Positions 4,697-45,457 of a DNA stretch of 45,615 bases are shown one piece after another. The first letter of the stretch is position 1; the number at the start of each line of letters is the position of its first letter. Both the position numbers and the translations under genes were made by a program. Under the pieces are notes generated by a model, which was given only the letters and a program-made list of their open reading frames with translations, was not told where the DNA came from and did no database searches. Source of the stretch: an uncultured Prevotellaceae bacterium. Lineage in GTDB: Bacteria; Bacteroidota; Bacteroidia; Bacteroidales; Bacteroidaceae. The stretch is taken from positions 1 through 45,615 of the forward strand of contig CACXJZ010000018.1 of the NCBI GenBank assembly GCA_902768105.1, written 5' to 3'.

Positions 4697-5390
4697 CACC
4701 GTCGTAGGTCTGCATCTCCAGGCGCACGGAATCGGCCTTGATGCTGCGGACGGGAATGCTGAAAAAGCGCTGCAGGGAATAGTATTCAGGCACGCCGCCC
4801 TGGTCATGATACAACCGATAATGGGCAGTCAGCCTGCCATCGGCCTGCTGCATGATGGTATCTTGAATAATTGCCAGCGTCTGGTGCACATCTTCCTCGT
4901 CGGGCTGCCCCGTCATCAGGATGATGCTGGTATTCAGATAACGTTTGTTGGCAGAAAGCCAGATGCTTTCGAACTTCACCGCATCAGTCTTGACGTCGCC
5001 CGTAGCACGATGGGCAAACAAGGTAGGAACCAACGACATCCCCTTAGCTTCGGCAACAGTCTTGCCGAGGCTATTTTTTACCTTATTATAATATAGGACG
5101 GCACGATAGGTGGTGTCGGCTGTCTCAATGGCCTTGATAGTGAAGCGCGGCTCGGCTGCCAGCGAGTCTCCATCATCGGTCACGATATAGTCCACCTTTT
5201 TGTCGCTGCCCACATGGGCCTCCACGAAGTCAGCACGCATCAGCGAATACTCTCCCTCGCCCTTGTCGTAGTTGTCCTGTTCGCAAGAAGTGAAGAGTGA
5301 AGAGTGAAGAGTGAAGAATGCTGCGCACAGCAACACTCTGCACCATCTGTATTTATTGCTAAATATTCTCACAGCGTTAAAATTCTTCAC
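4668..5390 (-). CDS. NigD-like lipoprotein with a repeat-encoded signal peptide
   Basis: A 240-residue predicted lipoprotein. The lipobox is LFTSC with the lipidated Cys before EQDNYDKGEG, and the mature part resembles NigD-like proteins of Bacteroidales (beta-rich, YIVTDDGDSL motif), whose function is not established. The start is GTG at 5390, overlapping the stop of the upstream acyltransferase gene by 4 bases (GTGA). The hydrophobic part of the signal peptide (FFTLHSSLFTSC) is encoded by four exact TCTTCAC heptamers. A second heptamer array in the opposite orientation covers the start codon. Its 3' end overlaps the threonine aldolase gene by 29 bases. Last gene of the 9285-to-4668 operon. 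The family assignment is moderately sure, the lipoprotein nature more so. Confidence 0.72.
   Translation of the reverse strand: MKNFNAVRIFSNKYRWCRVLLCAAFFTLHSSLFTSCEQDNYDKGEGEYSLMRADFVEAHVGSDKKVDYIVTDDGDSLAAEPRFTIKAIETADTTYRAVLYYNKVKNSLGKTVAEAKGMSLVPTLFAHRATGDVKTDAVKFESIWLSANKRYLNTSIILMTGQPDEEDVHQTLAIIQDTIMQQADGRLTAHYRLYHDQGGVPEYYSLQRFFSIPVRSIKADSVRLEMQTYDGVIVRTVPVR
5290..5317. repeat. Heptanucleotide array, (GTGAAGA)x4
   Basis: Four exact head-to-tail copies of GTGAAGA on the + strand. They lie inside the signal-peptide codons of the NigD-like lipoprotein. On the coding strand they read as TCTTCAC and give a peptide with a 7-residue period. Gain or loss of a unit would shift the frame. Confidence 0.95.
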
Positions 5391-5404
5391 TCTTCACTCT
5401 TCAC
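5384..5404. repeat. Heptanucleotide array, (TCTTCAC)x3, inverted relative to 5290-5317
   Basis: Three exact TCTTCAC units on the + strand, the reverse complement of the array at 5290-5317, 66 bp away. They encode the last residues of the acyltransferase and its TGA stop, and contain the GTG start of the NigD-like gene. The two arrays could pair as a 21-bp stem. Confidence 0.95.
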
Positions 5405-6526
5405 TTTATTGCGCAAAGGGTTGGCATACATGGTCAGCATACGCTCACGCAGGAAAGCCTCATCCTTATTGGGAACAATGATCTTTGCCAACTGACCGGC
5501 AAGATACTTCTCGAAACACTGCTTGTCGGCAGTTGTGTAATGAGCGGCATTGTACTGATTGCCGTTCAGCTCGTCAAGCGCGATGTAGTTACAAGGATAG
5601 AGACGGTAGTTACGATGCAGCTCACGGTCTATGCGCTGACTGACAGCCTTGAAGAAATCGTTTCTGGGCAACTCGGCCAACTCGTCTATCCAGGTGTTGG
5701 CGGGTGCTGCGCAACAGTAGTGTACGCGTCCTTTATAGCCGAAGATGCCCGTCTTCATGTTGTCGAGGTCATCCTGCTTGCTCTTCTTGAACGCCGGATT
5801 GTCACGCTTCTGCTGCATCTCCTGCGCCTTCAGGTAGTCACAAGGGTCAAACTCATAGCTAATCGTGAGCGGAACGATGTTCAGTTCGCGGAGGTCGCCG
5901 CCCATCGCCAGCATCTTCAGCACAGAGTCCTGCGTGCGGTCGTCGGAGTCCTTGGCACGACCCTCGCGCTGTGCAATCCAGATATTCTCCTTCTTCTGCG
6001 TCACGGCATAGTGGATGTAACTGCTCATGAGCTGACTGCTACGCATCATCTCGTGAGCCGTGAGCCCACGACGTACAGTAAAGGCCTTGTTCATGCGTAC
6101 CAGACGCTTGATCCAGGGATAGATGAGCAAGTTGTCGCCAATGCCTATCTCCACCGTCGTGGGATAGCCGTTATTGACAAGCATGACGTCCAGAAAAGCG
6201 GAGTCGAGCACAATATCACGATGGTTGCTCAGGAATGTGTAGCGCAGCGACTTATCCGCAGGCAACAGTTTGTCTTCAAACGTACAACCGTCAGTATGCT
6301 TGCGGATAATCCATTTGACGACAGGCTTCATGAAGCGCTTCTGGAAGTCAAGCGGTGTCTTGACACCCGTAAAGGCCAGTCGCAATAGTCCGTTGCGTAA
6401 ACCCTTCGGTAGCCAAGGTACAAAACCTTTCATGATGATGCTAAACTGCCGGTCGTTCAATAAATCGTTGAACGCCTGCTGCATCTCACCCGCCTCATAA
6501 GGCCGTATCTCGTCAAACTCGTTCAT
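5387..6526 (-). CDS. Glycerophospholipid-type acyltransferase (PlsC-like domain)
   Basis: A 379-residue acyltransferase of the 1-acylglycerol-3-phosphate acyltransferase superfamily as found in Bacteroidales, probably acting on membrane phospholipid or another acyl acceptor at the inner membrane. Block I is SNHRDIVLD (100-108): His102 and Asp108 are separated by five residues, not the usual four (HX4D). Block III is likely EGRAKDSDDRTQ. Hydrophobic segments near residues 37-52 may anchor it. The stop lies inside a heptamer array, so the C-terminal residues VKSEE look repeat-derived. It follows ddl by 3 bp and overlaps the next gene by 4 bases. The substrate cannot be read from sequence. Confidence 0.8.
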   Translation of the reverse strand: MNEFDEIRPYEAGEMQQAFNDLLNDRQFSIIMKGFVPWLPKGLRNGLLRLAFTGVKTPLDFQKRFMKPVVKWIIRKHTDGCTFEDKLLPADKSLRYTFLSNHRDIVLDSAFLDVMLVNNGYPTTVEIGIGDNLLIYPWIKRLVRMNKAFTVRRGLTAHEMMRSSQLMSSYIHYAVTQKKENIWIAQREGRAKDSDDRTQDSVLKMLAMGGDLRELNIVPLTISYEFDPCDYLKAQEMQQKRDNPAFKKSKQDDLDNMKTGIFGYKGRVHYCCAAPANTWIDELAELPRNDFFKAVSQRIDRELHRNYRLYPCNYIALDELNGNQYNAAHYTTADKQCFEKYLAGQLAKIIVPNKDEAFLRERMLTMYANPLRNKVKSEE

Positions 6527-6529
6527 ATA

Positions 6530-7519
6530 TCAGAATTGGTTTTCTACAATTTCTGTCAGCACGTCAGTCATGTTCAAGCCGGCAGCACGCACCTGCTGGG
6601 GGATGAAACTGGTGGCCGTCATGCCTGGTGTGGTGTTGACCTCAAGCATGGAAATCTTACCTTCCTTCGAGATGATATAGTCAATGCGGATGATGCCGTT
6701 ACAATGCAGGATGTCATAGATGTGACTGGTAATCTGACGAACACGCTCTGTCACATCATCTGACAGACGAGCAGGCGTAATCTCCTGCACCTGACCATTG
6801 TACTTTGCATCGTAATCGAAGAACTCGTTGGTTGTCACAACCTCAGTAGCCGGCAATACCACCGACTTCTTCTTCGTCTTATAACATCCTATGGAAATCT
6901 CTGTGCCTTCCAGGAACTGCTCAACCATCACCTCAGGACTCTCCATCATTGCCTTACGGATAGCGGGAGCCAACTGGTCCTTGTTCTTGACCTTCGACAC
7001 GCCAAACGACGAACCGTCGGAAGCCGGCTTGACAAAGCAGGGCATACCAATACGCTCCTCTATCTCCTCGTCGCTGACAATCTGCTCATAGCCCTTACGG
7101 ATGAGCAGGGAGTCAGCCACGCTGACACCATAGCTGCGCAGGTACTGGTTGAGCACGAACTTGTCGAACGTCATCGCCTCAACGAGCACGCCACTTGTGG
7201 AGTAAGGCAGGCGGATGAGGTCGAAGTAGCCCTGCAGCAGTCCGTTCTCACCTGGAGTACCATGAATGGTGATGTAGGCATAGTCAAACAACTTTGCCTT
7301 TCCGTCTTCCACAAACGAGAAGTCGTTACGGTCAATGCGTGTGGTCACGCCGCCTGGCAGCTCCACGCGCCAGTCAACACCCTTCACATCGACAATATAT
7401 ACGTTATAGCGTTCCTTATCGAAGAACGAATAGAGTCCTTGGGCAGAACGCAGCGACACATCATGCTCAGACGAGTCGCCTCCACAAACAATCGCAATGT
7501 TTCTCTTCAAACGTTTCAT
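6530..7519 (-). CDS. ddl: D-alanine--D-alanine ligase
   Basis: A 329-residue ATP-grasp ligase that makes D-Ala-D-Ala for peptidoglycan precursors. Evidence is the N-terminal IAIVCGGDSSEHDVSLRSA, the ATP-grasp segments GMPCFVKPASDGSSFGV and VEQFLEGTEISIG, and the metal-binding C-terminus MLEVNTTPGMT. Length is normal. It is third in an operon after a PASTA protein and rluD, 24 bp after rluD. The product is the substrate of MurF, whose gene lies at 19026-20384 on the other strand. Confidence 0.97.
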   Translation of the reverse strand: MKRLKRNIAIVCGGDSSEHDVSLRSAQGLYSFFDKERYNVYIVDVKGVDWRVELPGGVTTRIDRNDFSFVEDGKAKLFDYAYITIHGTPGENGLLQGYFDLIRLPYSTSGVLVEAMTFDKFVLNQYLRSYGVSVADSLLIRKGYEQIVSDEEIEERIGMPCFVKPASDGSSFGVSKVKNKDQLAPAIRKAMMESPEVMVEQFLEGTEISIGCYKTKKKSVVLPATEVVTTNEFFDYDAKYNGQVQEITPARLSDDVTERVRQITSHIYDILHCNGIIRIDYIISKEGKISMLEVNTTPGMTATSFIPQQVRAAGLNMTDVLTEIVENQF

Positions 7520-7543
7520 AGCTGTACTTTTCTCTTTGTTTAT

Positions 7544-9679: not shown

Positions 9680-9707
9680 TTTTCACTTTTCACTTTTCAC
9701 TTTTCAC
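9680..9707. repeat. Heptanucleotide array, (TTTTCAC)x4, between rpmH and efp promoters
   Basis: Four exact TTTTCAC units followed by an eight-T run and the efp -7 element. The array occupies the place where the -33 element of efp should be (9694-9697 reads TTTT). Confidence 0.95.
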
Positions 9708-9716
9708 TTTTTTTTG

Positions 9717-9725
9717 TACCTTTGC
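9717..9725 (+). promoter_or_regulatory. -7 promoter element of efp
   Basis: TACCTTTGC fits TAnnTTTG. No TTTG is seen 19 bp upstream, where the heptamer array lies. The sequence around it (GTACCTTTGCACCCGC) resembles the tRNA-Pro promoter at 20511. Confidence 0.65.
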
Positions 9726-14805: not shown

Positions 14806-14930
14806 AACCTGCCATTATAGCAGGTTCCACTGTATGAAATAATAAGATACGATGAGCCTGTTTTATAGCAGGTTCCCTGTATGAAATAATAAGATACGAT
14901 GAGCCTGCCTTAAAGCAGGTTCATCGTATC
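14806..14930. repeat. Tandem hairpin array between convergent TM2 and ackA genes (bidirectional terminator)
   Basis: Three inverted repeats share a GCAGGTT arm. The first is AACCTGC (14806-14812) with GCAGGTT (14820-14826). A 47-bp unit beginning CTGTATGAAATAATAAG occurs at 14830 and again at 14877. The last and longest is GATACGATGAGCCTGC (14893-14908) pairing with 14915-14930 across a 6-base loop, 16 bp with one G-T pair. The right arm of that last hairpin is the final codons of ackA, so the array seems to have grown by copying the end of ackA. Confidence 0.8.
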
Positions 14931-19025: not shown

Positions 19026-20384
19026 ATGATGGATATCAAGGAACTATACGAACTGTACAAACAGCATCCGTGCATCACGACTGACTCACGCGACTGTCCT
19101 GAAGGCAGCATTTTCCTCGCCCTGAAGGGTGAGAAGTTCGACGGCAACCAATATGCGCTGCAGGCCCTCGAGAAGGGCTGCGCGTATGCCATCGTGAGCG
19201 AAGAGTTCCCTTCCTCTAGGGAAGGGCAGGAGGACAGGCTCATCGTCGTTAACGACACGCTCCAGACCTTCAAGGACTTGGCACGCGAGCACCGCCGCCA
19301 ATTCGACATTCCCGTGGTGGGCATCACCGGCACCAACGGCAAGACGACCACCAAGGAGCTCATCGCCGCCGTGCTGCAGACACACTACAACGTGCTCTAC
19401 ACCGAGGGCAACTTCAACAACGACGTGGGTGTACCCAAGACGCTAATGCGACTGAACGGGGAACACGACATCGCCGTCATAGAGATGGGCGCCTCACACC
19501 CGGGCGACATCAAGACACTGGTGGAGACGACCGAACCAACGTGCGGTCTCATCACGAACGTGGGACGCGCCCACCTGCAGGGCTTTGGCTCGTTCGAAGG
19601 CGTATGCCGTACAAAGGGAGAATTGTATGACTTTCTCATCGCCCACGACTGTCCTCTCTTCGTGAACCGCGACAATGAACACCTGGTGAAGATGATTGGT
19701 ATTCGAGGTACAAGGTGCGAGGTACGAAGTACGGCCCCCGACATCTACTACTACGGACAGAGCGACTCGCCCGACATCCTGATAAGGGGCGAGGTTATCT
19801 CGTGTGCACCCTTCCTGAAGTTCCGCTGGCGCGAGCAGGACAGCGATGCCGGCTACCAGAGCGACTGGATGGAGGTGCAGACGAAGCTCATTGGCGCCTA
19901 CAACATTGACAACATGCTGGCTGCCATCACGGTGGGTTACGTGAACGGCGTACCCTTCGATGACATCAACCGAGCGCTGGCCGGCTACACCCCCAAGAAC
20001 AACCGTTCACAACTGACCGTAACGGAGCACAACCACTTGGTGGTGGACGCCTATAATGCCAACCCGACGTCGATGCAGGCTGCCATCAACAACTTCCGAA
20101 TGATGGAGGTTAGTCCTAAGATGGTCATTCTTGGACAGATGGGAGAACTGGGCGACGTCTGTCAGGAGGAGCATCAGCGGCTCATCGACATGTTGCGCGA
20201 GGCTCAGTTCGACCAGGTGTGGCTCGTAGGAGAAGAATTCCTGCATACCGACAGTCATTTCCGTCACTTTGCCAATGTGGAGGAGGTAAAGGCTGCCATA
20301 CGTGCAGAACAGCCTCGAGGCTACTACATATTAATAAAGGGTAGTAATAGTAACCGGCTCTTCGAATTGCCGGAATTGTTGTAA
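19026..20384 (+). CDS. murF: UDP-MurNAc-tripeptide--D-alanyl-D-alanine ligase
   Basis: A 452-residue Mur ligase that adds D-Ala-D-Ala to the peptidoglycan precursor. It is identified by the N-terminal domain (TTDSRDCPEGSIFLALKGEKFDGN), the ATP loop GITGTNGKTTTKEL (about 99-112), EMGASHPGDIKTL, ITNVGRAHLQGFGS, and the C-terminal DAYNANPTSMQAAI. Two in-frame ATGs open the gene (19026 and 19029). One oddity is residues about 228-236 (GTRCEVRST), encoded by a degenerate GGTACGA-type heptamer array that looks inserted. The gene must still be functional, since the frame is open to the end. An AGGTTAG-type heptamer array starts at the base after the stop. Confidence 0.96.
   Translation: MMDIKELYELYKQHPCITTDSRDCPEGSIFLALKGEKFDGNQYALQALEKGCAYAIVSEEFPSSREGQEDRLIVVNDTLQTFKDLAREHRRQFDIPVVGITGTNGKTTTKELIAAVLQTHYNVLYTEGNFNNDVGVPKTLMRLNGEHDIAVIEMGASHPGDIKTLVETTEPTCGLITNVGRAHLQGFGSFEGVCRTKGELYDFLIAHDCPLFVNRDNEHLVKMIGIRGTRCEVRSTAPDIYYYGQSDSPDILIRGEVISCAPFLKFRWREQDSDAGYQSDWMEVQTKLIGAYNIDNMLAAITVGYVNGVPFDDINRALAGYTPKNNRSQLTVTEHNHLVVDAYNANPTSMQAAINNFRMMEVSPKMVILGQMGELGDVCQEEHQRLIDMLREAQFDQVWLVGEEFLHTDSHFRHFANVEEVKAAIRAEQPRGYYILIKGSNSNRLFELPELL
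19707..19734 (+). repeat. Heptanucleotide array inside murF (GGTACGA type)
   Basis: Four in-phase units: GGTACAA, GGTGCGA, GGTACGA, AGTACGG. They encode GTRCEVRST within the central domain of MurF. Confidence 0.75.
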
Positions 20385-20440
20385 AGGTTAGAGATTAAAG
20401 GTTAAAGGTTAGAGGTTAGAGATTAAAGGTTAAAGGATTA
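20385..20440 (+). repeat. Heptanucleotide array after murF (AGGTTAG/AGATTAA/AGGTTAA)
   Basis: Eight heptamers in exact phase starting one base after the murF stop codon. The order A-B-C-A-A-B-C-(AGGATTA), with A = AGGTTAG, B = AGATTAA and C = AGGTTAA, shows a higher-order 21-bp unit. No hairpin is formed. Confidence 0.9.
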
Positions 20441-20473
20441 AAAAAAGTTAAACAAAGAAGAGCGGGAGCAAAT

Positions 20474-20501
20474 TCTTCACTCTTCACTTTTCACTCTTCA
20501 C
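20474..20501 (+). repeat. Heptanucleotide array upstream of tRNA-Pro (TCTTCAC/TTTTCAC)
   Basis: Units TCTTCAC, TCTTCAC, TTTTCAC, TCTTCAC, then seven T and the -7 element of the tRNA promoter. The arrangement matches 9680-9725 upstream of efp. Confidence 0.95.
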
Positions 20502-20510
20502 TTTTTTTCG

Positions 20511-20519
20511 TACCTTTGC
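20511..20519 (+). promoter_or_regulatory. -7 promoter element of tRNA-Pro
   Basis: TACCTTTGC, 27 bases before the tRNA 5' end. The -33 position is occupied by the heptamer array (TTTT). Confidence 0.65.
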
Positions 20520-20546: not shown

Positions 20547-20619
20547 CGGGATGTAGCGCAGTTGGTAGCGCACTACGTTCGGGACGTAGGGGTCGGGCGT
20601 TCGAGTCGCCTCATCCCGA
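20547..20619 (+). tRNA. tRNA-Pro (anticodon CGG)
   Basis: A complete cloverleaf. The acceptor stem CGGGATG pairs with CATCCCG, the D arm is GCGC...GCGC with loop AGTTGGTA, and the anticodon stem CTACG/CGTAG holds the loop TTCGGGA. That gives anticodon CGG with G37. The T arm is GGGCG TTCGAGT CGCCT, and the discriminator is A. CCA is not encoded. It reads CCG codons. It has its own promoter and a strong terminator just after it. Confidence 0.97.
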
Positions 20620-20623
20620 CAGG

Positions 20624-20652
20624 AAAAAAGGAGCCTTTCAGCTCCTTTTTTT
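20624..20652. terminator. Bidirectional rho-independent terminator (tRNA-Pro and HAD gene)
   Basis: GGAGC (20630-20634) pairs with GCTCC (20641-20645) across CTTTCA. The flanking A-run (20624-20629) and T-run (20646-20652) make it effective on both strands. It overlaps the stop codon of the convergent HAD gene. Confidence 0.88.
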
Positions 20653-21370
20653 ATTGCAGTAACGTCAGAAGTTCCTCAATACGTTCAATCTTCACCATCC
20701 GCTCATGCTCGATATCCTCATGCACCTCGAGCTGCCACGTGACATGGAAGGGAATGTGGACGGCCTGTGCACCAATGGCCAGTGCTGGGGCAATATCGCT
20801 CTTGAGTGAGTTGCCCACCATGAGCAGTTCGCTGGGTTCAATCTGCAGGAGGCGGCAGAGTGCCAGAAACTCTTTCTCGGTCTTGTCGGATGTAATCTCC
20901 ACATAGTCGAAGTACTTGGCAAGCCCTGATCGGCGCAGCTTGTTCTCCTGGTCTTGCAGTTCACCCTTGGTGAAGCAGACAATCTTGGGTGGAAAGCGGA
21001 AGGTGGAGGGTGAAGCGTGGAGGATTTCCAACACTTCTACCACGCCAGGCAAGGGTGTTGCCGGCAGATGGAGCAGGTGCTTGCCAGCCTCCAGAAGCGC
21101 AGTAAGCTGCGTGGCGCTGAGGTCGTTGCCGCAGACGCGCAGGGCGGTCTCCATCACACTCATGGTAAAGGCCTTGCAGCCATAGCCCAAGTCCTCCATG
21201 TTCTGACTCTCCGTCACAAATAGCTCATGGGCAGGGTCGTCACAATAAGGGTTGATGAAGCTATAGAGCAGGTTCTCCACCTCCTCGAAGTGTGACTGGC
21301 AGTCCCACAGCGTATCGTCAGCGTCGAAAGCAATGACGCGTATCTTCTCAATATCCAGTTTTTTCATCAT
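20651..21370 (-). CDS. HAD-superfamily hydrolase (YjjG-like phosphatase)
   Basis: A 239-residue haloacid-dehalogenase phosphatase. Motif I is DADDTLWD (residues 16-23) with nucleophile Asp16 and Asp18. Motif II is in VCFTKG, motif III is Lys in SDKTEKEF, and motif IV is VGNSLKSDI. A helical cap follows motif I. The closest familiar group is the YjjG/pyrimidine 5'-nucleotidase type, but the substrate is inferred only by length and cap position. Residues about 118-128 (HASPSTFRFPP), just before the motif II strand, are encoded by five heptamers and look inserted. Last gene of the minus-strand run from the RND operon, 15 bp after the DUF4421 gene. Confidence 0.82.
   Translation of the reverse strand: MMKKLDIEKIRVIAFDADDTLWDCQSHFEEVENLLYSFINPYCDDPAHELFVTESQNMEDLGYGCKAFTMSVMETALRVCGNDLSATQLTALLEAGKHLLHLPATPLPGVVEVLEILHASPSTFRFPPKIVCFTKGELQDQENKLRRSGLAKYFDYVEITSDKTEKEFLALCRLLQIEPSELLMVGNSLKSDIAPALAIGAQAVHIPFHVTWQLEVHEDIEHERMVKIERIEELLTLLQ
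20988..21022 (-). repeat. Heptanucleotide array inside the HAD phosphatase gene
   Basis: Five units on the + strand (GGTGGAA, AGCGGAA, GGTGGAG, GGTGAAG, CGTGGAG). On the coding strand they read as CCTTCCA/CCTCCAC-type repeats and give the peptide LHASPSTF, nearly the same as LHLSPSTF in the P-type ATPase at 36951-36985. Confidence 0.8.
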
Positions 21371-33669: not shown

Positions 33670-34671
33670 ATGAAGCGACTGCTCGCATATATGCTTTTAG
33701 CGCTGCTCTTGGTTTCGTGCGGAACCGAGAGCGGCCGCTTTCGTTTAGAAGGACACCTGAAAAACATGAATCAGGCAGAGTTCTACATCTATTGCATGGA
33801 TGGCGGTTTTCCCAAGCCTGACACCGTCAAAGTAGCCAAGGGCCGTTTCGTCTATGAGACAGACCTGGACCGTCCGGCCACCTATGTCATCGTTTTCCCC
33901 AACGGCTCGGAACTGGCCATATTCGGCAACTCAGGAGTGACCGCGAAAATGGAGGGCGACGCCTCGCACCTGAGAGAGACAACCGTCGAGGGTACTGACG
34001 AGAACGAAGAGTTTACGGCTTGGCGCATGAACGCCAACCGTCTGACACCCCCAGAAGTAGAACAGGCTGCCAAAGACTTTATCCGCGAGAACCCCGCCTC
34101 TGTCATCAGCAACTACCTGTTGCAACGTTTTCTGGTATTAGGGTCAAAGCCTGACTACAAGACCGCATTCGAGTTGGTGAAGCTTCTGCTGAAGGAACAG
34201 CCGGACAACGGACGTCTTATCCGTCTGGAAAAGGAACTCAAAGGACTACAATATGCCATGAACGGCGCTACCCTACCCAACTTCAAGGCTACCGATATCA
34301 ACGGCAATACGGTGAGCCGCGAGTCGTTGAAAGGTGAGTTGAACATTATCTCCGTATGGGCCATGTGGAACTATGAGAGCCAGAGCATGCAACGTAAGCT
34401 CCACGATTTGAAACGCACCTACGGCAGCCGCCTCGGGCTGTTGAGCATCAACCTCGACGCTTCCATGAACGAGGGCCGACGCTTCCTTGAGCGCGACTCT
34501 ATCACATGGAGCAATGTCTGTGACGGCCGTATATGGGAGTCGCCGCTAGTGATGCAGCTGGGCATTACGGATGTTCCTGGTAATATTTTCACCGACCGCC
34601 AGGGAAAAGTTATCGACTTGAACGTGCCCGTTCCGAAACTGGAAGAACGGGTGAAGGGTATTCTTAAATGA
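33670..34671 (+). CDS. DUF4369/thioredoxin-like lipoprotein lacking the CxxC motif
   Basis: A 333-residue lipoprotein (lipobox LLLVSCG, Cys17). An N-terminal DUF4369 beta domain (about 20-110) is followed by a helical linker and a C-terminal thioredoxin/AhpC-TSA fold (about 200-333: GATLPNFKATDINGNTVS; IISVWAMWNYESQSM; LGITDVPGNIFTD). Relatives usually have WASWCxxC. Here the site is WNYES, with Asn234 and Ser237 in place of both cysteines, although the cis-Pro loop (VPGN) is kept. It should be redox-inactive and may bind rather than reduce a partner. The stop overlaps the ATPase start (ATGA). Confidence 0.83.
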   Translation: MKRLLAYMLLALLLVSCGTESGRFRLEGHLKNMNQAEFYIYCMDGGFPKPDTVKVAKGRFVYETDLDRPATYVIVFPNGSELAIFGNSGVTAKMEGDASHLRETTVEGTDENEEFTAWRMNANRLTPPEVEQAAKDFIRENPASVISNYLLQRFLVLGSKPDYKTAFELVKLLLKEQPDNGRLIRLEKELKGLQYAMNGATLPNFKATDINGNTVSRESLKGELNIISVWAMWNYESQSMQRKLHDLKRTYGSRLGLLSINLDASMNEGRRFLERDSITWSNVCDGRIWESPLVMQLGITDVPGNIFTDRQGKVIDLNVPVPKLEERVKGILK

Positions 34672-37259
34672 AAAAACATTACACAGGACTTTCCGATGCA
34701 GAAGTGCTACGCAGTAGAGCGGAGCACGGTGCTAACGTGCTCACACCGCCTGATCGGGAATCGCTATGGAAACGTTTTTTCGAGAAACTGACAGGTCCCT
34801 TCGGCCATCGTCTAAAAGGCTGGAGAGACGGTGACCCGCTCATCTTCATCCTGGAGATTGCCGCCCTGCTGTCCGTCATGATTTCACTGGCAGAATATAA
34901 CGAATGGTTCGGACTGCACAACCCTGGCGGAGGGGTATTCTTCGAACCGCTGGGCATCCTGATGGCCATTCTGCTGGCAACTGGCTTTTCCTTTATCTTC
35001 GAACTGAAAGCCAGCCGCGAGTTTTCCCTGTTGAACCAAGTGAACGACGAGGAGCCCGTGCTCGTGGTACGTAACGGTAACACCACGCAAATTCCACGTT
35101 GTGACGTGGTGGTGGGCGACATCGTCATGCTCTCTACAGGCGACGAGGTGCCCGCCGATGCCGTATTGTTGGAGGCTACATCGCTACAGATGGACGAGTC
35201 TTCGTTGACGGGTGAACCTGTGTGCAGCAAGACGGTCATCGAGGCTGACTTCGACCAAGAGGCAACGTTTCCCAGCAATCACGTCATGCGTAGCACAAAA
35301 GTGATGGAGGGACATGCCGTCTGTCAGGTGCAGGCTGTGGGCGACCAGACAGAATATGGGCACGTCTTCGTGGCTGCACAATTAGACGACAGCGTGAAGA
35401 CTCCCCTGAACGAGCAGTTGGAAGGTTTGGGCAAACTCATCACCAAAGCCAGTTATCTTGTCGCCATATTCGTAGTGTTGGGTCGCATACTGATGTACGT
35501 ACTGACACGCGACTTCGTACTCATTGACTTCATCACCTACCTGTTACAAACGGTCATGATAGCTGTGACACTCATCGTGGTTGCCGTTCCTGAGGGACTG
35601 CCTATGGCTATCTCGCTGTCGCTGGCTTACTCCATGCGCCGAATGCTCAAGACCAACAACCTCGTGCGCCGTATGCATGCCTGCGAAACGATGGGAGCAG
35701 CCACCGTCATCTGTACGGACAAGACAGGCACACTGACACAAAACCAAATGAAGGTAGCAGAAATAGTCCCTTTAGGCACTATAGACACTATCCAGGAAAA
35801 CCTCGCCATCAACTCTACCGCCCAGCTGGACCTGCAAAACGCGGAAAAACCGCTCGTGTTAGGCAACCCTACAGAGGGCGCCCTGTTACTGTGGCTCCAC
35901 GAGCAAGGCATCGACTATCGCCAGTTACGCGAACAGGCAGAGATTGTTGACGAGCTGCCCTTTTCGACAGAGCGCAAATACATGGCCACCACCATACGCA
36001 GGCAGGACGGCACAAAGGTGCGCTACGTCAAAGGAGCACCCGAGGTGGTAATGGGCATGTGTAACACACAGTCTGCCAGCGTCAAGTCCACACTTCTCAA
36101 GTGGCAGCAGCAGGCTATGCGCACGCTGGCCGTTGCCAGTCAGCAAGAAGGTGAACAGCAGCCTACGCTCAATGCCCTTGTGGCCATCAGCGACCCTGTA
36201 CGCCCTGACGTTCCTGCAGCTGTCAAAGAGTGTTTGGATGCAGGCATCCAAGTGAAGATTGTGACGGGCGACACCCCGGGCACGGCTCGCGAGATTGGCA
36301 GACAGGTTGGTTTGTGGACTAATACCGACGGCGACGAAAACATCATTACGGGTCCCGAGTTTGCTACCCTTACCGACAAGCAACTGCTAGAACGAGTAGA
36401 AAATCTGAAGATTATTGCACGTGCACGTCCTATGGACAAGCGGCGGCTGGTGGAAGCCCTGCAACAACGGAACGAGGTAGTGGCTGTGACTGGCGACGGC
36501 ACCAACGATGCACCTGCCCTGAAAGCCGCCCACGTTGGGCTGTCGATGGGTGACGGCACATCAGTAGCCAAGGAAGCCAGCGACATCACCATCATTGACA
36601 ATTCGTTCTCCAGCATCGGCCGTGCCGTCATGTGGGGGCGCTCACTCTATCAGAACATACAGCGCTTCATCCTGTTCCAGCTGACCGTCAATGTGGTTGC
36701 CTGTCTCGTGGTGCTCGTAGGAGCGTTTACCGGGACAGAGTCGCCGCTTACTGTCACACAGATGCTCTGGGTGAACCTCATCATGGATACCTTCGCAGCA
36801 ATGGCGTTTGCCACATTGCCCCCCTCCGCAGCCGTCATGCACGACAAGCCTCGCAGCCGTCAGGCGTTCATCATCAGCAAGACCATGTGGCAACACATCT
36901 GGGGCATCGGCTTGCTCTTCACGGCCGCTTTGCTCGTTCTGCTTTTCCTGCCCTCAACCCTCCACCTTTCACCTTCCACCTTCTTTACCATCTTCGTGAT
37001 GCTTCAGTTCTGGAACATGTTTAACACCCGAGCCTTTGCTACAGGGAGGTCGGCCTTTCATCTGCGTGGCTGTAAGGGTTTCCTGCTGATTGCTGCGCTC
37101 ATCTTCCTGGGGCAGGTTCTTATCATCAATCTCGGAGGTGCATTCTTCAACGTAGAACCCCTGTCGCTGCAGACATGGCTCATAACAACCGGTGCCACCT
37201 CGCTCGTCCTGTGGACAGGTGAAGTGGCACGTCTGCTTACATCTAAAAGAAAGGCTTAG
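34668..37259 (+). CDS. Calcium-type P-type ATPase (PMCA-like)
   Basis: An 863-residue P2-type cation pump. The phosphorylated Asp351 is in CTDKTGTLTQNQ. The actuator loop has SLTGEP, the nucleotide domain has KGAPEVV, and the hinge is GDGTNDAPALKAA (Asp610, Asp614). The M4 motif VPEGLP and the M6 motif VNLIMDTFAA match calcium ATPases of the plasma-membrane type. It probably exports Ca2+ (Mn2+ cannot be excluded). In a loop between C-terminal helices, residues 762-773 are encoded by five heptamers (PSTLHLSPSTFF). It overlaps the preceding gene by 4 bases, and its stop directly abuts the stop of the convergent esterase gene. Confidence 0.92.
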   Translation: MKKHYTGLSDAEVLRSRAEHGANVLTPPDRESLWKRFFEKLTGPFGHRLKGWRDGDPLIFILEIAALLSVMISLAEYNEWFGLHNPGGGVFFEPLGILMAILLATGFSFIFELKASREFSLLNQVNDEEPVLVVRNGNTTQIPRCDVVVGDIVMLSTGDEVPADAVLLEATSLQMDESSLTGEPVCSKTVIEADFDQEATFPSNHVMRSTKVMEGHAVCQVQAVGDQTEYGHVFVAAQLDDSVKTPLNEQLEGLGKLITKASYLVAIFVVLGRILMYVLTRDFVLIDFITYLLQTVMIAVTLIVVAVPEGLPMAISLSLAYSMRRMLKTNNLVRRMHACETMGAATVICTDKTGTLTQNQMKVAEIVPLGTIDTIQENLAINSTAQLDLQNAEKPLVLGNPTEGALLLWLHEQGIDYRQLREQAEIVDELPFSTERKYMATTIRRQDGTKVRYVKGAPEVVMGMCNTQSASVKSTLLKWQQQAMRTLAVASQQEGEQQPTLNALVAISDPVRPDVPAAVKECLDAGIQVKIVTGDTPGTAREIGRQVGLWTNTDGDENIITGPEFATLTDKQLLERVENLKIIARARPMDKRRLVEALQQRNEVVAVTGDGTNDAPALKAAHVGLSMGDGTSVAKEASDITIIDNSFSSIGRAVMWGRSLYQNIQRFILFQLTVNVVACLVVLVGAFTGTESPLTVTQMLWVNLIMDTFAAMAFATLPPSAAVMHDKPRSRQAFIISKTMWQHIWGIGLLFTAALLVLLFLPSTLHLSPSTFFTIFVMLQFWNMFNTRAFATGRSAFHLRGCKGFLLIAALIFLGQVLIINLGGAFFNVEPLSLQTWLITTGATSLVLWTGEVARLLTSKRKA
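36951..36985 (+). repeat. Heptanucleotide array inside the P-type ATPase gene
   Basis: Five in-phase units: CCCTCAA, CCCTCCA, CCTTTCA, CCTTCCA, CCTTCTT. They encode PSTLHLSPSTFF at a turn between two transmembrane helices, a place that tolerates insertion. Confidence 0.8.
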
Positions 37260-38121: not shown

Positions 38122-38130
38122 GCAAAGATA
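38122..38130 (-). promoter_or_regulatory. -7 promoter element of the esterase gene
   Basis: TATCTTTGC on the minus strand, followed by CGC and the ATG at 38117. No TTTG is seen 19 bp upstream. The geometry to the start codon is the same as at folP, suggesting a leaderless or very short-leader mRNA. Confidence 0.6.
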
Positions 38131-38140
38131 CAAAAAAATA

Positions 38141-38168
38141 AGCATGAAGCATGGAGAATGAAGAATTT
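38141..38168. repeat. Heptanucleotide array between divergent promoters (AGCATGA type)
   Basis: Units AGCATGA, AGCATGG, AGAATGA, AGAATTT, in phase, directly before the -7 element of the SGNH gene and inside the -33 region of both divergent promoters. Confidence 0.75.
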
Positions 38169-38172
38169 TTTG

Positions 38173-38181
38173 TAACTTTGC
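38173..38181 (+). promoter_or_regulatory. -7 promoter element of the SGNH-MBOAT operon
   Basis: TAACTTTGC, followed by AGCCGCTTATAAG, which nearly matches the region after the tRNA-Pro promoter (AGCCGCTTACGAG). The -33 region is replaced by the heptamer array. Confidence 0.65.
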
Positions 38182-38204
38182 AGCCGCTTATAAGTTTTTT
38201 TAAG

Positions 38205-41494: not shown

Positions 41495-42238
41495 ATGAAA
41501 AGTAATAAATTTGCTACCGTACTTATTGTTGGCTGTTGGCTGTTGGCTGTTGGCTATTGGCCATTGGCTGCCAACGCACAGCGCGTCACCTACCGTTTCA
41601 CACAGCATTATAACGAGCGCGTGGAACTCTTCGACCAGCTGGACGACATTGACAGCACCAAGATAGTCATGCTGGGCAACAGCCTGACGGAGAATGCCGT
41701 TGCCTTCGGCGACTGGAGCACGCTGCTGCGCATCAAGAACGTGGTCAACCGTGGAATATCAGGCGACGACGCGCTGGGCATCACCAGCCGACTGGTACAA
41801 ATACTGCCCAAGAATCCCAAGGCCATTTTCCTCATGTGCGGCACCAACGACCTCAGCCACCATCTGACGGCCGAACAGGTATTCTATAAGGTCAAAGGAG
41901 TCATCGACAGCATCCGCTCGGGCGCTCCCAAAACGGAGCTGTACGTGCAGAGCCTGCTGCCCATCAACGAGGGCTTCGGACGCTGGAAGAACCTGAAGGG
42001 ACGTACCGACGACATTCCCGTTATCAACGACATGCTACGTCACTATTGCAACGAACAGAACATCACCTTCGTCAACCTCTTCCCCTTCTTCACCGCCCGT
42101 GGCGGCAAGGCGCAGAACGTGCTCATACGCTACCTCAGCGTCGATGGTCTGCACCTCTCACGTCCGGGTTACATCATCTGGGCGCAGCACTTGCAGCCCT
42201 ACATCGACGAAGTGAACTGGGGAGACTACATGAAATAG
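41495..42238 (+). CDS. Secreted SGNH/GDSL hydrolase with a heptamer-encoded signal peptide
   Basis: A 247-residue secreted SGNH hydrolase of the platelet-activating-factor acetylhydrolase/sialate O-acetylesterase-like type. Block I is VMLGNSLTE (Ser63), block III is MCGTNDLSHH, and the final Asp/His is in VDGLHLSRPGY. Likely an O-deacetylase for glycan or peptidoglycan. The signal peptide (1-28, ending ANAQ) has the internal 7-residue repeat VGCWLLA-VGYWPLA, encoded by six TTGGCTG-type heptamers at 41529-41570. Without the array there would be no usable hydrophobic core. It is last in the SGNH-MBOAT operon, 9 bp after the transglycosylase-like gene. Confidence 0.87.
   Translation: MKSNKFATVLIVGCWLLAVGYWPLAANAQRVTYRFTQHYNERVELFDQLDDIDSTKIVMLGNSLTENAVAFGDWSTLLRIKNVVNRGISGDDALGITSRLVQILPKNPKAIFLMCGTNDLSHHLTAEQVFYKVKGVIDSIRSGAPKTELYVQSLLPINEGFGRWKNLKGRTDDIPVINDMLRHYCNEQNITFVNLFPFFTARGGKAQNVLIRYLSVDGLHLSRPGYIIWAQHLQPYIDEVNWGDYMK
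41529..41570 (+). repeat. Heptanucleotide array encoding a signal peptide (TTGGCTG)
   Basis: Six in-phase units: TTGGCTG three times, TTGGCTA, TTGGCCA, TTGGCTG. They encode the hydrophobic core of the SGNH hydrolase signal peptide. Confidence 0.95.
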
Positions 42239-42249
42239 ACCCCTTCTAA

Positions 42250-42300
42250 CTCCCCCTGTTTAGGGGGAGAACCTAAGAAGTCCTCCCTAAACAGGGAGGA
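42250..42300. terminator. Pair of G/C-rich hairpins between convergent genes
   Basis: CTCCCCCT (42250-42257) pairs with AGGGGGAG (42262-42269) across GTTT. TCCTCCCT (42281-42288) pairs with AGGGAGGA (42293-42300) across AAAC. The two hairpins are roughly reverse complements of each other. They lie between two convergent stop codons and could end transcription from both sides, but there is no T-run. Similar C/G-run hairpins are dispersed in Bacteroidota genomes, so this may also be a repeat family. Confidence 0.6.
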
Positions 42301-42301
42301 T

Positions 42302-43879
42302 TTAGGATGGTCGAATTACAAACTTATATATCATTCGGCCCCTGCAGCCAACCACTGCTGTGTTGCCGACGACCACAGGCGACGACTCGAAGTTGGTGCC
42401 GATGGTCTTTTTGCAAACCACCTCACCCGTCTTTCCCCTGACGATGCGCAGGATGCCCGACGCATCGCCCGCAAAGACGAACATCTCGTTCTTCTCATTA
42501 TGGAAAGCCACAGGCGACGACCAGGCAAACTGTCCGTAAGGTACGGTATAGACCACGTGACCGTCGCTCGTGTCAATGGCCGTCAGCTCACCCACAGTCT
42601 TCGAAGCACCGTTCCTGTTGATGTGCGTAAACAGCAGCCCCTCACAGTCGCCTGATCCCAGAAGCGGTGTGCAGTACATGCCACCGTCCAAGGTCTTCTC
42701 CGACAGGTTCAGTCGCTGGCAGGCAATTTTCTGCTCCCATACCCGCTGACCGTTCAGCGCGTTCAGCTTCACCATGTGACAGAATCCGCTGCCTCCCTGC
42801 TTATCCACCTCACAGGCCGTATATATATAAGGTGTGCCGTTTTCCTCACGACAGACGATGGTGCCGTCCGTATCGTCGTGGTTGTCGTAGTACCACACGG
42901 GGCGCATCGTGTTCAGGTTCACGCAGATAATGTCACCGTGATTGTCGCCGAAGAAGCCGTAGTTGCGATACACACACAGGCTCGACTCAATACCCGGAGC
43001 AGCACCCTTCACCCTGTAGCGCATCACGCTGACACGCTTCAGCTGTCCCTGACTGCGCTCATATTTGTAGAAGCTGCAGTTCTCGCCTGGCCAGAACAGG
43101 TAGCCGCCAGCCACGATGGGCGACGAGTCGAACGCGTTCCAGCTGCGCCACGCCTTTGCGTCAGGGCCGAAGAAGAACGTGCGTTCATGTTTCAGCAGAT
43201 CGAACACCTGACAGCCGAAGGGGCCCGGCTTGCGAGGCACGCCCTGTCCCACATAGAGGTTGTAATACTCGGGGTCGAGCGATACCGTACCCTTCACCAC
43301 GTTGCCCAGGTCGAGCGGCTGACGCGAGGCACGTCCTGTCTGGTAGTTGATGAAGTAGGCCTTGCCACACAGCGAACCCACGATGATCTCCTCACGTCCG
43401 AAGTCAGCCGTCAGACCGGGCGAGCGTTTCAGGTCCTTCAGCTGTTCGTCGGTCCAGTTCACGTAAAGCGGCTGACCGGTCCATCCGGAGCCCCCACCCC
43501 ACGTGCCGAACTTCGTATGCGTGGTGTCGTAGTCCGTCGAGAACTCCCACGCTATCTCAATCTCCTTGGGCGTGCCCTTCACCTTTCCCCCGTAGCTGGC
43601 ATTGCGCAGCAGGTTCTTGCGGAAGGCAAATACCCCGTTAGCCCGTTCGTAGCGGTCGTCAAAGTCCTTCAGCGGGTGAGCCAGCGAGTCCTCGTTCTCC
43701 ACTATATACTTCACCGCCTCTGCCGAAGCATAGCTTGTGTCAGGCAGCATCAGCTCCTCCATCGTCAGCTCTGTAGCCACAGAGTCCGCCGGCTGTTCAC
43801 CGTTGTTCGTCGTCCGTCCTGCGCACCCCGTCAACAGCAGGGCTGCAGCCATCAGCAATAGCTTATTCTTTCTTCTCAT
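42302..43879 (-). CDS. PQQ-like beta-propeller lipoprotein
   Basis: A 525-residue lipoprotein (MRRKNKLLLMAAALLLTGC, lipobox LLTGC) with a beta-propeller of PQQ-like repeats (EIIVGSLCGKAYFINYQTGRA, GDIICVNLNTMRPVWYYDNHD, GELTAIDTSDGHVVYTVPYG, ASGILRIVRGKTGEVVCKK). Such propellers scaffold other envelope proteins or bind ligands. No PQQ-dehydrogenase residues are evident. The ATG at 43879 is preferred over an in-frame one 78 bases upstream because it directly opens the lipoprotein signal and lies downstream of the -7 element. Function unknown. Confidence 0.8.
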   Translation of the reverse strand: MRRKNKLLLMAAALLLTGCAGRTTNNGEQPADSVATELTMEELMLPDTSYASAEAVKYIVENEDSLAHPLKDFDDRYERANGVFAFRKNLLRNASYGGKVKGTPKEIEIAWEFSTDYDTTHTKFGTWGGGSGWTGQPLYVNWTDEQLKDLKRSPGLTADFGREEIIVGSLCGKAYFINYQTGRASRQPLDLGNVVKGTVSLDPEYYNLYVGQGVPRKPGPFGCQVFDLLKHERTFFFGPDAKAWRSWNAFDSSPIVAGGYLFWPGENCSFYKYERSQGQLKRVSVMRYRVKGAAPGIESSLCVYRNYGFFGDNHGDIICVNLNTMRPVWYYDNHDDTDGTIVCREENGTPYIYTACEVDKQGGSGFCHMVKLNALNGQRVWEQKIACQRLNLSEKTLDGGMYCTPLLGSGDCEGLLFTHINRNGASKTVGELTAIDTSDGHVVYTVPYGQFAWSSPVAFHNEKNEMFVFAGDASGILRIVRGKTGEVVCKKTIGTNFESSPVVVGNTAVVGCRGRMIYKFVIRPS

Positions 43880-43904
43880 TAGGTTAGCATTTTGAGTTTC
43901 GCCG

Positions 43905-43913
43905 GCAAAGATA
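43905..43913 (-). promoter_or_regulatory. -7 promoter element of the beta-propeller gene
   Basis: TATCTTTGC on the minus strand, 25 bases before the ATG at 43879. The -33 element is not clear. Confidence 0.5.
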
Positions 43914-43956
43914 ATACTTTTTTCGCAAACTACTGCTAAAACAGGAAGAAAAATCA

Positions 43957-44014
43957 CTTCATCCCCTCCCAGTAACGTTCGTGTTACAACGGATGTTCAT
44001 GGGAGGGGATGAAG
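43957..44014. repeat. 15-bp perfect inverted repeat with nested hairpin
   Basis: CTTCATCCCCTCCCA (43957-43971) and its exact reverse complement (44000-44014) enclose 28 bases. The enclosed part contains a second small hairpin, GTAAC (43972-43976) with GTTAC (43983-43987). It lies between divergent promoters, so it is unlikely to be a terminator. It could be a palindromic repeat element or a regulatory site. Confidence 0.85.
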
Positions 44015-44061
44015 GGATGCCTGTACCATTTTTCTCGGTGTGCACTTTTCCCCCCTTTTCT

Positions 44062-44093
44062 TTTGTCGTTTCATATATTATCCCTATCTTTGC
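44062..44093 (+). promoter_or_regulatory. Promoter of the membrane protein gene at 44117
   Basis: TTTG at 44062-44065, 19 bp, TATCTTTGC at 44085-44093, a perfect consensus. The leader is about 20 nt. Confidence 0.8.
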
Positions 44094-44116
44094 AGCATAG
44101 AAGATAACAACGGATT

Positions 44117-44974
44117 ATGGACAAGGACAATTATGGAACTTACCATTGGGTAATTGTGGCCCTGTTTGGTTTGTCGCTACTCTGCGGCATAGGCTACGGC
44201 ATCATCAACATTATACTGACGGGAAGAGTAAGCAATACACTGATGTGGTTTCTGCCATTGTCGGGCGTAATAGCTTTGTTAGCGTGGGTTTATGCCCGAA
44301 GAGGGAGCTCCTTATCAGAGATATTCGACACACCAGACGAAAAAGGCAGCATTGCTGATCGTGTGCTCAGGTGGGCTCCGTTGGTGCCCTTCGGTTATAT
44401 CTTAATCATGTATCTCGTTCTCCCCACGAAAGTGAAGAGGATGATGTGGACTGATGATGTCATCGAGAGTCGCTACAAAACAGTTTACCTGATGGGGTTT
44501 GATATGACGACTCCCAATGGTTCCACAACGCGTCACTATCTTCAGGCAGGCGAACATTATCTTGCCAACGAGACTCCATTCACCATGGTAAGCTACGAGG
44601 TGCTTTACGGCAAGGACGACGGTCGTGAACTTGAGTGCAAACGTTTCGAACCTTACAGCATAGATATTGGTGAAGACGCCTCAAGAGAGGCTCCGAAATA
44701 CAATGTTTCTGATTACGTCGATAATGGTCGTGGCAAGGCTAAGATAGAAACCTGCGTGGAGAGCTATCTATGGTTTGAGCGTGGCAAAAAGCACATAACG
44801 CTGCTTGGACTCTTTCCCAGTTCCTCGTTGATTATAGCCCGCAGCTCTTATACGCCCGATGTGGTTGTAGAAAGCATAGCAAACGAGATCGTGGTGACCA
44901 ACAGTTTTGATGAAACGGTGCAGAAAAATAGGGAAGTGATTGATACATACTGCAAGGCGTTAGGAATGCATTAA
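44117..44974 (+). CDS. Membrane protein of unknown function
   Basis: A 285-residue protein I do not recognise. Three transmembrane helices are visible (about 11-34, 41-61 and 87-107). The remaining 175 residues form a soluble domain (VYLMGFDMTTPNGSTTRHYL, HYLANETPFTMVSYEVLYGKDDGREL, SLIIARSSYTPDVVVESIANEIVV) with no motif that I can assign. It has a consensus promoter and stands alone. Its stop overlaps the stop of the convergent small gene by two bases. Codon use is ordinary and the reading frame is clearly coding. Confidence 0.75.
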   Translation: MDKDNYGTYHWVIVALFGLSLLCGIGYGIINIILTGRVSNTLMWFLPLSGVIALLAWVYARRGSSLSEIFDTPDEKGSIADRVLRWAPLVPFGYILIMYLVLPTKVKRMMWTDDVIESRYKTVYLMGFDMTTPNGSTTRHYLQAGEHYLANETPFTMVSYEVLYGKDDGRELECKRFEPYSIDIGEDASREAPKYNVSDYVDNGRGKAKIETCVESYLWFERGKKHITLLGLFPSSSLIIARSSYTPDVVVESIANEIVVTNSFDETVQKNREVIDTYCKALGMH

Positions 44975-45249
44975 GTATATTTATCCGCCATTTTCTTGCA
45001 ATACTCCTCGCAGCTCTCACTACAATAGCGTGGGTCATAGAATTGAAACCAATAAGCAGGATTGGCGCGCTCTGATCTTTCTTCCTGCAATGTTTTTTTA
45101 TGTGGCTGTTTTTTCCTTTCTGTTGCAACGCTCTTGCTTGACTCAACAATTACAGCATTACCGTCCTCATCTTCGTAAACTCCACTCATACCCAAAGGGG
45201 TGAGTTCATCTTTAATTTGCTCGAATTCTTCTTCGTCTATTGTATACAT
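44971..45249 (-). CDS. Small protein with a Cys-rich C-terminus
   Basis: A 92-residue cytoplasmic protein starting MYTIDEEEFEQIKDEL. The first part is acidic and the middle is basic (SVATERKKQPHKKTLQEERSER). The end, YCSESCEEYCKKMADKY, has three cysteines in a C-x3-C-x3-C spacing and may bind metal. I do not recognise a family. The ATG at 45249 is chosen over an in-frame codon at 45309 because the -7 element at 45278-45286 lies between them. No partner gene is obvious. Confidence 0.65.
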   Translation of the reverse strand: MYTIDEEEFEQIKDELTPLGMSGVYEDEDGNAVIVESSKSVATERKKQPHKKTLQEERSERANPAYWFQFYDPRYCSESCEEYCKKMADKYT

Positions 45250-45277
45250 TTGTTTTATAGATATAGATGTTTTGACT

Positions 45278-45286
45278 GCAAAGATA
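45278..45286 (-). promoter_or_regulatory. -7 promoter element of the small Cys-rich protein gene
   Basis: TATCTTTGC on the minus strand, 28 bases before the ATG at 45249, with a degenerate TTGG 19 bp upstream. Confidence 0.5.
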
Positions 45287-45373
45287 CGAATAAGTGAGCA
45301 CAAAACCAATTTGTTTTGAGTTTTCTTTGTTTTTCACTCAACTATTCGTGTCTTTGGCCTTCGAACTTTAAGA

Positions 45374-45457
45374 GAGAGGAAGAAGGAAGATATGACATCA
45401 TACATCATACATCTGCCATCTTCCCTCCTTCAACCCTCCTCCTTCCGCCCTCCACCA
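45374..45457. repeat. Degenerate heptanucleotide array in an intergenic region
   Basis: Twelve consecutive 7-mers can be laid out in one phase, from GAGAGGA, AGAAGGA, AGATATG through ACATCAT twice and ACATCTG to pyrimidine-rich units such as CCCTCCT, TCCTCCT, TCCGCCC and TCCACCA. Only parts are exact, so this is the weakest of the arrays. The 233-bp gap from 45250 to 45482 holds this array, one promoter and one hairpin, and no gene that I can see. Confidence 0.55.

Follow-up and report, generated by a model that had tools for sequence, protein, structure and literature searches.

Contig CACXJZ010000018.1 of the uncultured Prevotellaceae assembly GCA_902768105.1, analysed here over its whole 45,615 nucleotides (the window), carries tandem arrays of seven-nucleotide direct repeats (heptamers) at eleven loci. 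Some lie within genes, including those for a NigD-like protein, a Mur ligase, a P-type ATPase and a GDSL-type hydrolase, and others upstream of efp and of a tRNA-Pro gene (Table 1). The source genome (2.70 Mb, 90 contigs) is 86.5% complete; within it, the window is contig C18. Here, we describe a small composite element, consisting of an 11-nt head, GCGGYAGCAAA, followed by a heptamer array, together with the more numerous arrays that have no head, and we put forward a tentative integrated view of both.

A preliminary description of the window, made from its letters alone, had listed these eleven loci as exact arrays. Their coordinates and the period of seven hold at 11/11 loci, but exactness at only 3/11 (5290, 5384 and 9680); two are near-exact (20474 and 41529) and the other six are degenerate. 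Twenty Markov simulations of the window (third order) contain no equally good stretch at any of the 11 thresholds, and Markov copies exclude a chance origin. Five of the arrays (5290, 19707, 20988, 36951 and 41529) are in coding sequence, as originally described. The unit sequences had been regarded as unrelated, which is true only in part, as TCTTCAC, TTTTCAC and the degenerate array at 38141 share one framework.

It had also been stated that the unit length is always seven. This reflects in part the selection of rows; in the window, Tandem Repeats Finder (TRF, minimum score 30) also reports periods 4, 6, 8, 9, 10, 12–15, 33 and 47, mostly with low scores. A strong preference for seven is nonetheless confirmed by array counts. 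A source-genome sample of 445,615 bases (the window plus the first 20 kb each of contigs C1–C17 and C19–C21) holds 40 near-exact arrays of period 7 and at most seven at each of the remaining periods between 3 and 24 (seven each at 8 and 22, five each at 12 and 14, two at 9, and none at 5, 6, 10 or 11), with no period-7 array in one second-order Markov copy of the sample. A looser threshold gives 50 arrays of period 7, 12 of period 12 and 11 of period 8. In 80 named Prevotella loci (1.458 Mb; orthologous, so that counts are not fully independent), there are 172 near-exact arrays of period 7, 29 of period 9 (the next best of periods 4–15), 25 of period 8 and none of periods 5 or 6. Exact runs in these loci number 112 at period 7 (0 simulated), 54 and 47 at its multiples 21 and 14, and 30, 27, 25 and 12 at periods 22, 9, 18 and 8, respectively. 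The earlier contentions that seven is a special unit length and that the arrays need a shared cause are both supported. Period 22 has an excess of its own, not accounted for by period 7: its exact runs exceed those of periods 20 and 23 in the named loci (30 vs 0 and 2) and in the source-genome sample (6 vs 1 and 0), and the named loci hold 20 near-exact arrays of this period.

In the genus, the density of near-exact heptamer arrays is about tenfold that in the sampled sister genera; there are three in 335 kb from other genera of the family, four in 205 kb from other genera of the class and none in 123 kb from other classes of the phylum. A genome outside the family, G131, has several close together (L285:419–540), a sparse occurrence elsewhere in the class. 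A single fixed heptamer does not account for the whole phenomenon, as 61 consensus units are found in the 172 named arrays and 40 different units among the 112 exact ones. A common feature is the near absence of G from one strand: G content on the C-richer strand is 1.9% in source-genome and 3.0% in named arrays, and one strand has ≤5% G in 35/40 and 127/172 arrays, respectively, compared with 0.6% and 1.0% of random 33-mers. By placement, 67 of the 172 named arrays lie in open reading frames (ORFs) of ≥150 codons and 48 at −7 boxes, leaving 57 in other positions. Three consecutive TCTTCAC units are present in 23/60 sampled genomes of the genus, source included, and absent from 37, with 59 overlapping matches in the source genome (about 35 arrays by our count) and 142 matches in the relative G034. 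Among source-genome TYTTCAC arrays of ≥3 units, counted in the sample and in stretches picked for TYTTCAC itself, 30/37 have four units, seven have three and none is longer. None of 139 exact runs from the source sample and the named loci exceeds 41 nt.

The head defines the composite element. An array at lag 7 (identity ≥0.6 over 32 nt) follows 48/55 exact occurrences of GCGGYAGCAAA that have enough flank (8/9 in the source sample, 40/46 in the named loci); mean lag-7 identity after the head is 0.83 and 0.71, respectively, and lags of 4–6 and 8–12 give 0.20–0.44. A profile of the 48 copies has the framework YTCTNNA, with A at every seventh column (0.94, 0.92, 0.92 and 0.79). Hits to this profile that include the head and score ≥15 bits have a density of 34 per Mb in the source and 38 per Mb across the named loci; none occurs in the three sets from outside the genus (335, 205 and 123 kb). 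An exact 34-nt composite is found in 65/200 genomes of the genus, source included, and in 0/294 other genomes of the order; a reversed-pattern control gave none among the matches listed.

Many copies of the element are single, not paired. Where two lie within 200 nt, they are oriented heads-inward in 19 cases, and never outward or on the same strand (134 matches, 15 genomes), with 25 nt the commonest spacer (5/19). All nine pairs in the named loci are likewise heads-inward, although some of these genomes may overlap with the set of 15, and TYTTCAC pairs in the source and G034 loci are all in the same order. Six tested pairs folded as DNA gave z-scores of −6.2 to −16.9. Copies resemble one another more within than between genomes in their variable letters (similarity 0.60 vs 0.46; 113 copies, near neighbours dropped; reached by 0/1000 label shuffles), and within one copy the variable dinucleotide is equal in 0.61 of unit pairs, compared with 0.28 after shuffling (maximum 0.36). 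The element is thus composite in structure, confined to the genus as far as the searched samples show, divided into genome-specific subfamilies and alike in its units within each copy. A known structured RNA was also considered and set aside, as a scan of six sources with Rfam at gathering cut-offs detected tRNAs and nothing else. Closely spaced copies include three arrays in tandem upstream of a gene, with 54 and 47 bp spacing (L056:1040–1185), and two in-frame copies in fmt, with 57 bp spacing (L051:959–1045).

In the window, the composite form is found at two promoters, that of tRNA-Pro (20462–20518) and a diverged one at 38123–38187, whereas the efp promoter (9680–9724) has an array without a head. 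The −7 boxes were recognised by TAnnTTTG, which we take to be the Bacteroidota consensus. The window's one inverted pair (5290–5404) has no clear head and folds as a hairpin (5288–5406; z −6.8, with 0/200 shuffles equally stable). Its first array encodes the hydrophobic part of an apparent lipoprotein signal peptide of the NigD-like protein (LLCAAFFTLHSSLFTSC). Two longer tandem repeats, of 33 bp (53–130; 2.4 copies) and 47 bp (14808–14922; 2.4 copies), are unrelated to the heptamers.

Table 1. Heptamer arrays and associated features of the window. Lag-7 matches are those of the originally cited span, with its start in brackets where this differs from the row.
Feature	Position	Strand	Lag-7 matches	Context
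(TCTTCAC)x4	5290..5317	-	21/21	In NigD-like protein ORF 4671-5390, minus strand (NigD_C, NigD_N)
(TCTTCAC)x3	5384..5404	+	14/14	Inverted partner of 5290-5317, 66-nt spacer
(TTTTCAC)x4 + trailing T	9680..9711	+	21/21	Upstream of efp -7 box; orthologous block elsewhere has other units or none
TACCTTTG	9717..9724	+		Bacteroidota -7 box of efp, 9 nt past last unit
Degenerate period-7 stretch	19707..19734	+	16/21	In Mur-ligase ORF 19026-20381, peptide GTRCEVRSTA
Degenerate TTARAGR heptamers, 8.6 units (TRF)	20382..20442	+	40/49 (20385)	Between Mur ligase and next element
Head variant GCGGGAGCAAA + TCTTCAC TCTTCAC TTTTCAC TCTTCAC	20462..20503	+	19/21 (20474)	Upstream of tRNA-Pro
TACCTTTG	20511..20518	+		-7 box, 9 nt past array; tRNA-Pro(cgg) at 20547-20620
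Degenerate period-7 stretch	20988..21022	-	20/28	In ORF 20651-21370 (minus), peptide LHASPSTFRFPP
Degenerate CACCTTC-type heptamers	36951..36985	+	22/28	In P-type ATPase ORF 34668-37256, peptide PSTLHLSPSTFF
-7 box TATCTTTG	38123-38130	-		Of degenerate promoter-type element
ATTCTTC ATTCTCC ATGCTTC ATGCTTA	38139..38168	-	16/21 (38141)	Four diverged heptamers after head GCGGCTGCAAA
Head variant GCGGCTGCAAA	38177..38187	-		Of degenerate promoter-type element
(TGTTGGC)x4 + two variant units	41527..41570	+	31/35 (41529)	In apparent signal peptide of GDSL-type hydrolase (LIVGCWLLAVGYWPLAANAQ)
Degenerate mixed heptamers	45374..45457	.	49/77	Exact part ACATCAT at 45395-45413

Elements and arrays recur in a few kinds of permissive slot: before −7 boxes, at operon junctions by start codons, and in protein loops. 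With simple longest-ORF gene calls, nine of 15 source elements precede a −7 box, two are coding on the same strand, two are coding on the opposite strand and two lie elsewhere. Among 56 named elements, the head is ≤25 nt from a start codon, in reverse orientation, in 16, a placement seen in 0/15 source elements; 18 are coding (13 same strand, five opposite), three are at −7 boxes and 19 elsewhere. In the 19 source cases with a box within 30 nt, the distance from array to −7 box is 9–11 nt. Promoter-type elements in L033, L035, L048, L053, L059, L060 and L066 are preceded by GTAAAAAT-like 7–8-mers, often with a TGCAAAGGTA-like inverted −7 box upstream, and element copies may therefore lie between divergent promoters.

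The efp promoter offers the clearest view of unit turnover. Most relatives of EFP in the named collections come from Prevotella and Prevotellaceae assemblies, many of which carry sample names that point to the ruminant gut. In 41 of 78 scored loci, the promoter holds a 28-nt array of four units, in nine consensus types, and in the other 37 it holds no array. The −7 box lies 9 nt from the array in 16/17 TTTTCAC blocks (8 nt in L139). Where both ends of the block from GCAAGTTT to the −7 box could be located (38 loci), it measures 46 nt in 33, among them every one of the 13 TTTTCAC cases. On a quick DNA tree of efp and the following glycosyltransferase gene (74 rows, 73 scored; 21/71 inner branches weak), at least 32 state changes are required, with at least 23 changes of unit type among the 41 array rows. 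The sister loci L113 and L117 (support 94) have nearly identical flanks and the 46-nt block, but different units. Units at this promoter have thus been replaced while block length stayed constant, an outcome that selection on spacing, interspecies recombination or overwriting in place could each produce. Some array-free efp promoters have other recurring upstream blocks, of the TTTGCTTTTTGCTC..TTATTC type or the TTTTATGTTTTTTTC type (L101, L140, L148, L172 and L177; L142, L157, L167 and L174), and promoter-upstream modules look as if they were interchangeable. An explanation by a single sequence-specific regulator was rejected in view of the diversity of the units and the many efp promoters without an array.

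Arrays within genes show a similar variety. In the source genome, they lie in frame in hisS and, twice, in fmt, the products of both genes scoring above NCBIfam cut-offs. In-frame arrays also occur in RlmI-like and MalQ-like genes and in an AguB-like gene that holds an inverted copy as well, all three with best hits under cut-off, and in an ispG-like gene named from its sequence letters only. At the same coding slots in relatives, the heptamer array is missing or other inserts take its place. Of 29 hisS relatives aligned and compared by eye, five have heptamers in the loop, the source unit being present in one (G051, L072) and different units in four, and the remainder have palindromes, 9-mers or nothing. 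The same variety is seen in the loops of fmt (13 relatives; one unit in L185, four in L188), the RlmI-like gene (12) and the AguB-like gene (14, of which nine lack an insert). The glycosyltransferase loop, viewed in 75 of the 78 loci that gave a hit (one of the rows, L174, does not represent the ortholog), holds by eye at least eight different heptamer units; in the source genome, this loop has no heptamers. At the junction before an acyltransferase-like gene, unit variety is similar in non-coding sequence. Larger G+C-rich palindromes, several of the CCCCTCCC/GGGAGGGG type, occur in frame at the same loops in other species (L200 and L207, RlmI-like; L163 and L171, glycosyltransferase; L211, AguB-like). 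Essential enzymes therefore tolerate repeated in-frame insertions, and recurring peptides such as SSLFTLHSSL or VKSEEFAAA are suggested to be repeat DNA rather than domains.

The preliminary description held that loss or gain of one unit in a coding array shifts the frame. The coding copies that were aligned keep their frame open, which argues against frame-shifting contingency loci. One exception agrees with the earlier view and leaves such a role conceivable: in G119, a draft genome not among the 29 aligned relatives, the reading frame differs between the two halves of hisS and changes at a CTCTCAC array in the same loop (L353:890–930), although an assembly error is possible.

To account for these observations, we tentatively propose two layers in a rumen-type subset of Prevotella: a small dispersed non-coding element and a broader seven-nucleotide process. 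The element of the first layer would comprise the head, about four direct repeats of YTCTNNA and a CTWA-like end, and would occur singly or as a heads-inward inverted pair able to fold into a long hairpin; the second, more numerous layer would comprise the headless arrays of many other heptamers. New element copies may arise by copying of existing ones, perhaps through template switching aided by the hairpin and the G-poor strand. Within a slot, seven-nucleotide misalignment or gene conversion could overwrite the units, all changing together, and this step alone might yield headless arrays. Selection would purge copies that break genes or alter spacing, leaving about four units.

Several findings weigh against this two-layer proposal. 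Head-bearing hits overlap only 13/40 source and 28/172 named arrays, and in a strict framework count exactly four units are present in just 23 of the 48 head-bearing copies (three in 7, five in 6, other numbers in 12). The composite is patchier in genomes that are ≥90% complete and ≤5% contaminated (14/85) than in the genus overall, and pair spacers in the source genome vary from 41 to 83 nt. G034 has arrays of 5–7 units. No moving enzyme was found, and in the aligned loops, with their ambiguous boundaries, neither a target duplication nor a clean empty site could be defined. The genome-specific subfamilies could stem partly from mutation bias, the constant efp length may reflect spacing selection or interspecies recombination, and some loops appear to take their unit from local codons, such as GTCAATT in L165. 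Unit sharing within 20-kb named loci is at chance (8/140 pairs vs 5.9 expected; reached by 1153/5000 shuffles) and was discarded as proof of dispersal, whereas the whole-genome test of the composite pattern was significant. Because head-bearing elements are the minority of arrays, and given the G119 break, our confidence in the two layers was lowered from evenly balanced to somewhat below that, and plain slippage was raised from unlikely to slightly less so.

Plain slippage, as suggested in the preliminary description, would mean that the lineage often duplicates seven-nucleotide segments, either because the footprint of the polymerase spans about 7 nt or because loops of 7 nt are poorly repaired; each array would then have formed independently, seeded by the sequence at its own site, and the head would be a hitchhiker. 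It agrees with a single period across so many unrelated units, with the absence of the head from most arrays, and with different units at the same loop across species, some of them matching local codons; the one and four units in fmt, the frame change at the G119 array and the 5–7 units of G034 are as expected of it, and excerpts of PMC4692102 report it as a published proposal. What it does not predict are the head before an array in 48/55 cases, the 19:0 orientation of pairs with genome-specific subfamilies, and the lack of any exact run above 41 nt together with the constant efp block. Free slippage would scatter copy numbers, and is thus not supported by the 30/37 arrays of four units or by the 46-nt efp block. 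We regard plain slippage as rather unlikely. Less likely again is a functional reading, in which the arrays would either serve as binding sites at a seven-nucleotide pitch, for example for a cold-shock-domain protein or another protein that binds single strands, or act as a promoter-upstream module. The regular distance to the −7 box (9–11 nt in the 19 source cases, 9 nt in 16/17 efp TTTTCAC blocks), the heads close to start codons in 16/56 named elements and the almost G-free strand would suit such a role, as would the binding of heptamer direct repeats by CspB, described in excerpts of PMC4679880. This is countered by the 37/78 efp promoters without an array, the wide differences between unit sequences, the absence of source elements at start codons (0/15) and the many copies within coding sequence.

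Two further mechanisms were considered, both improbable. Mobilisation by a transposase, in the manner of repetitive extragenic palindromic (REP) sequences and their REPIN pairs, or of a miniature inverted-repeat transposable element (MITE), is marginally the more doubtful. The heads-inward hairpins and the GTAG inside GCGGTAGC recall such elements, and in-frame insertion is known for REPs and Rickettsia palindromic elements (excerpts of PMC3733652). However, the Y1 transposase family PF01797 (E ≤0.001), found in 34/60 genomes, was detected neither in the 86.5% complete source genome nor in the array-bearing G032, G035 and G056, which makes mobilisation by a REP-associated tyrosine transposase (RAYT) unlikely; moreover, 16/56 exact heads read GCAG rather than GTAG (40/56), and no target duplication was established. 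It is also conceivable, though improbable, that a dedicated writing activity with a seven-nucleotide ruler, comparable to a templated repeat-adding polymerase, uses the head or its hairpin as an anchor to add about four heptamers from a genome-specific short template. If true, this would explain the single period, the usual number of units and the combination of one head with genome-specific units.

Comparison with heptamer repeats elsewhere places the two-layer proposal in context. The preliminary description had pointed to cyanobacterial heptamers, a fair comparison, although over-representation of heptamers extends to many bacteria besides cyanobacteria, seven being the commonest class in the 5–11 nt range in most genomes surveyed, and polymerase slippage has been proposed as the cause (Mrazek 2007, as told in excerpts of PMC4679880 and PMC4692102). 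The only cause for the excess met in these excerpts is polymerase contact length. Such long simple sequence repeats resemble the Prevotella arrays in being tandem 7-nt units beyond chance, and differ from them in that the Prevotella arrays usually have about four units, a fixed head and pair orientation in a share of copies, and many coding locations. As described in excerpts of PMC4679880, TAACTGA repeats, known from Beggiatoaceae, Cyanobacteria and a few Bacteroidetes, are also dispersed heptamer sets. Many of them directly precede start codons, where the Prevotella heads lie close to a start codon in 16/56 named and 0/15 source elements. They have one unit, whereas the Prevotella arrays comprise numerous units, also occur within genes, and include a head motif and inverted pairs; no rotation of TAACTGA or of its complement is present among the 27 exact source arrays or the 40 exact named units, a comparison confined to these sets with no whole-genome search made. 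The GGGAATC/GGGGAYT repeats of Xanthomonas and Nostoc (excerpts of PMC4692102) are similarly lineage-specific and variable between close relatives, and an inverted arrangement is mentioned for them, but they are G-rich with quadruplex potential, whereas the Prevotella arrays are nearly G-free on one strand.

Rickettsia palindromic and REP/REPIN elements (excerpts of PMC3733652) are, like the Prevotella element, small, non-coding, hairpin-capable and found inside unrelated genes. In-frame insertion in unrelated conserved genes is shared with the former, and a hairpin-capable inverted pair, as in the paired Prevotella form, with the latter; the Prevotella element differs in its arms of direct heptamers, the absence of the CGTC end tag from its consensus and the lack of a RAYT in the source genome. 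Closer in taxonomy is the MITE minisatellite of Porphyromonas gingivalis, a related genus, in which a tandem array lies in an inverted-repeat element, a likeness drawn by description only (excerpts of PMC4596501). No literature on the head element or on Prevotella heptamer arrays was found among the matches listed from open-licence PMC full text. The slots refilled with different heptamers across species amount to a natural experiment on the origin, homogenisation and spread of 7-nt repeats. The general excess of heptamers and its proposed origin by slippage are already in print.

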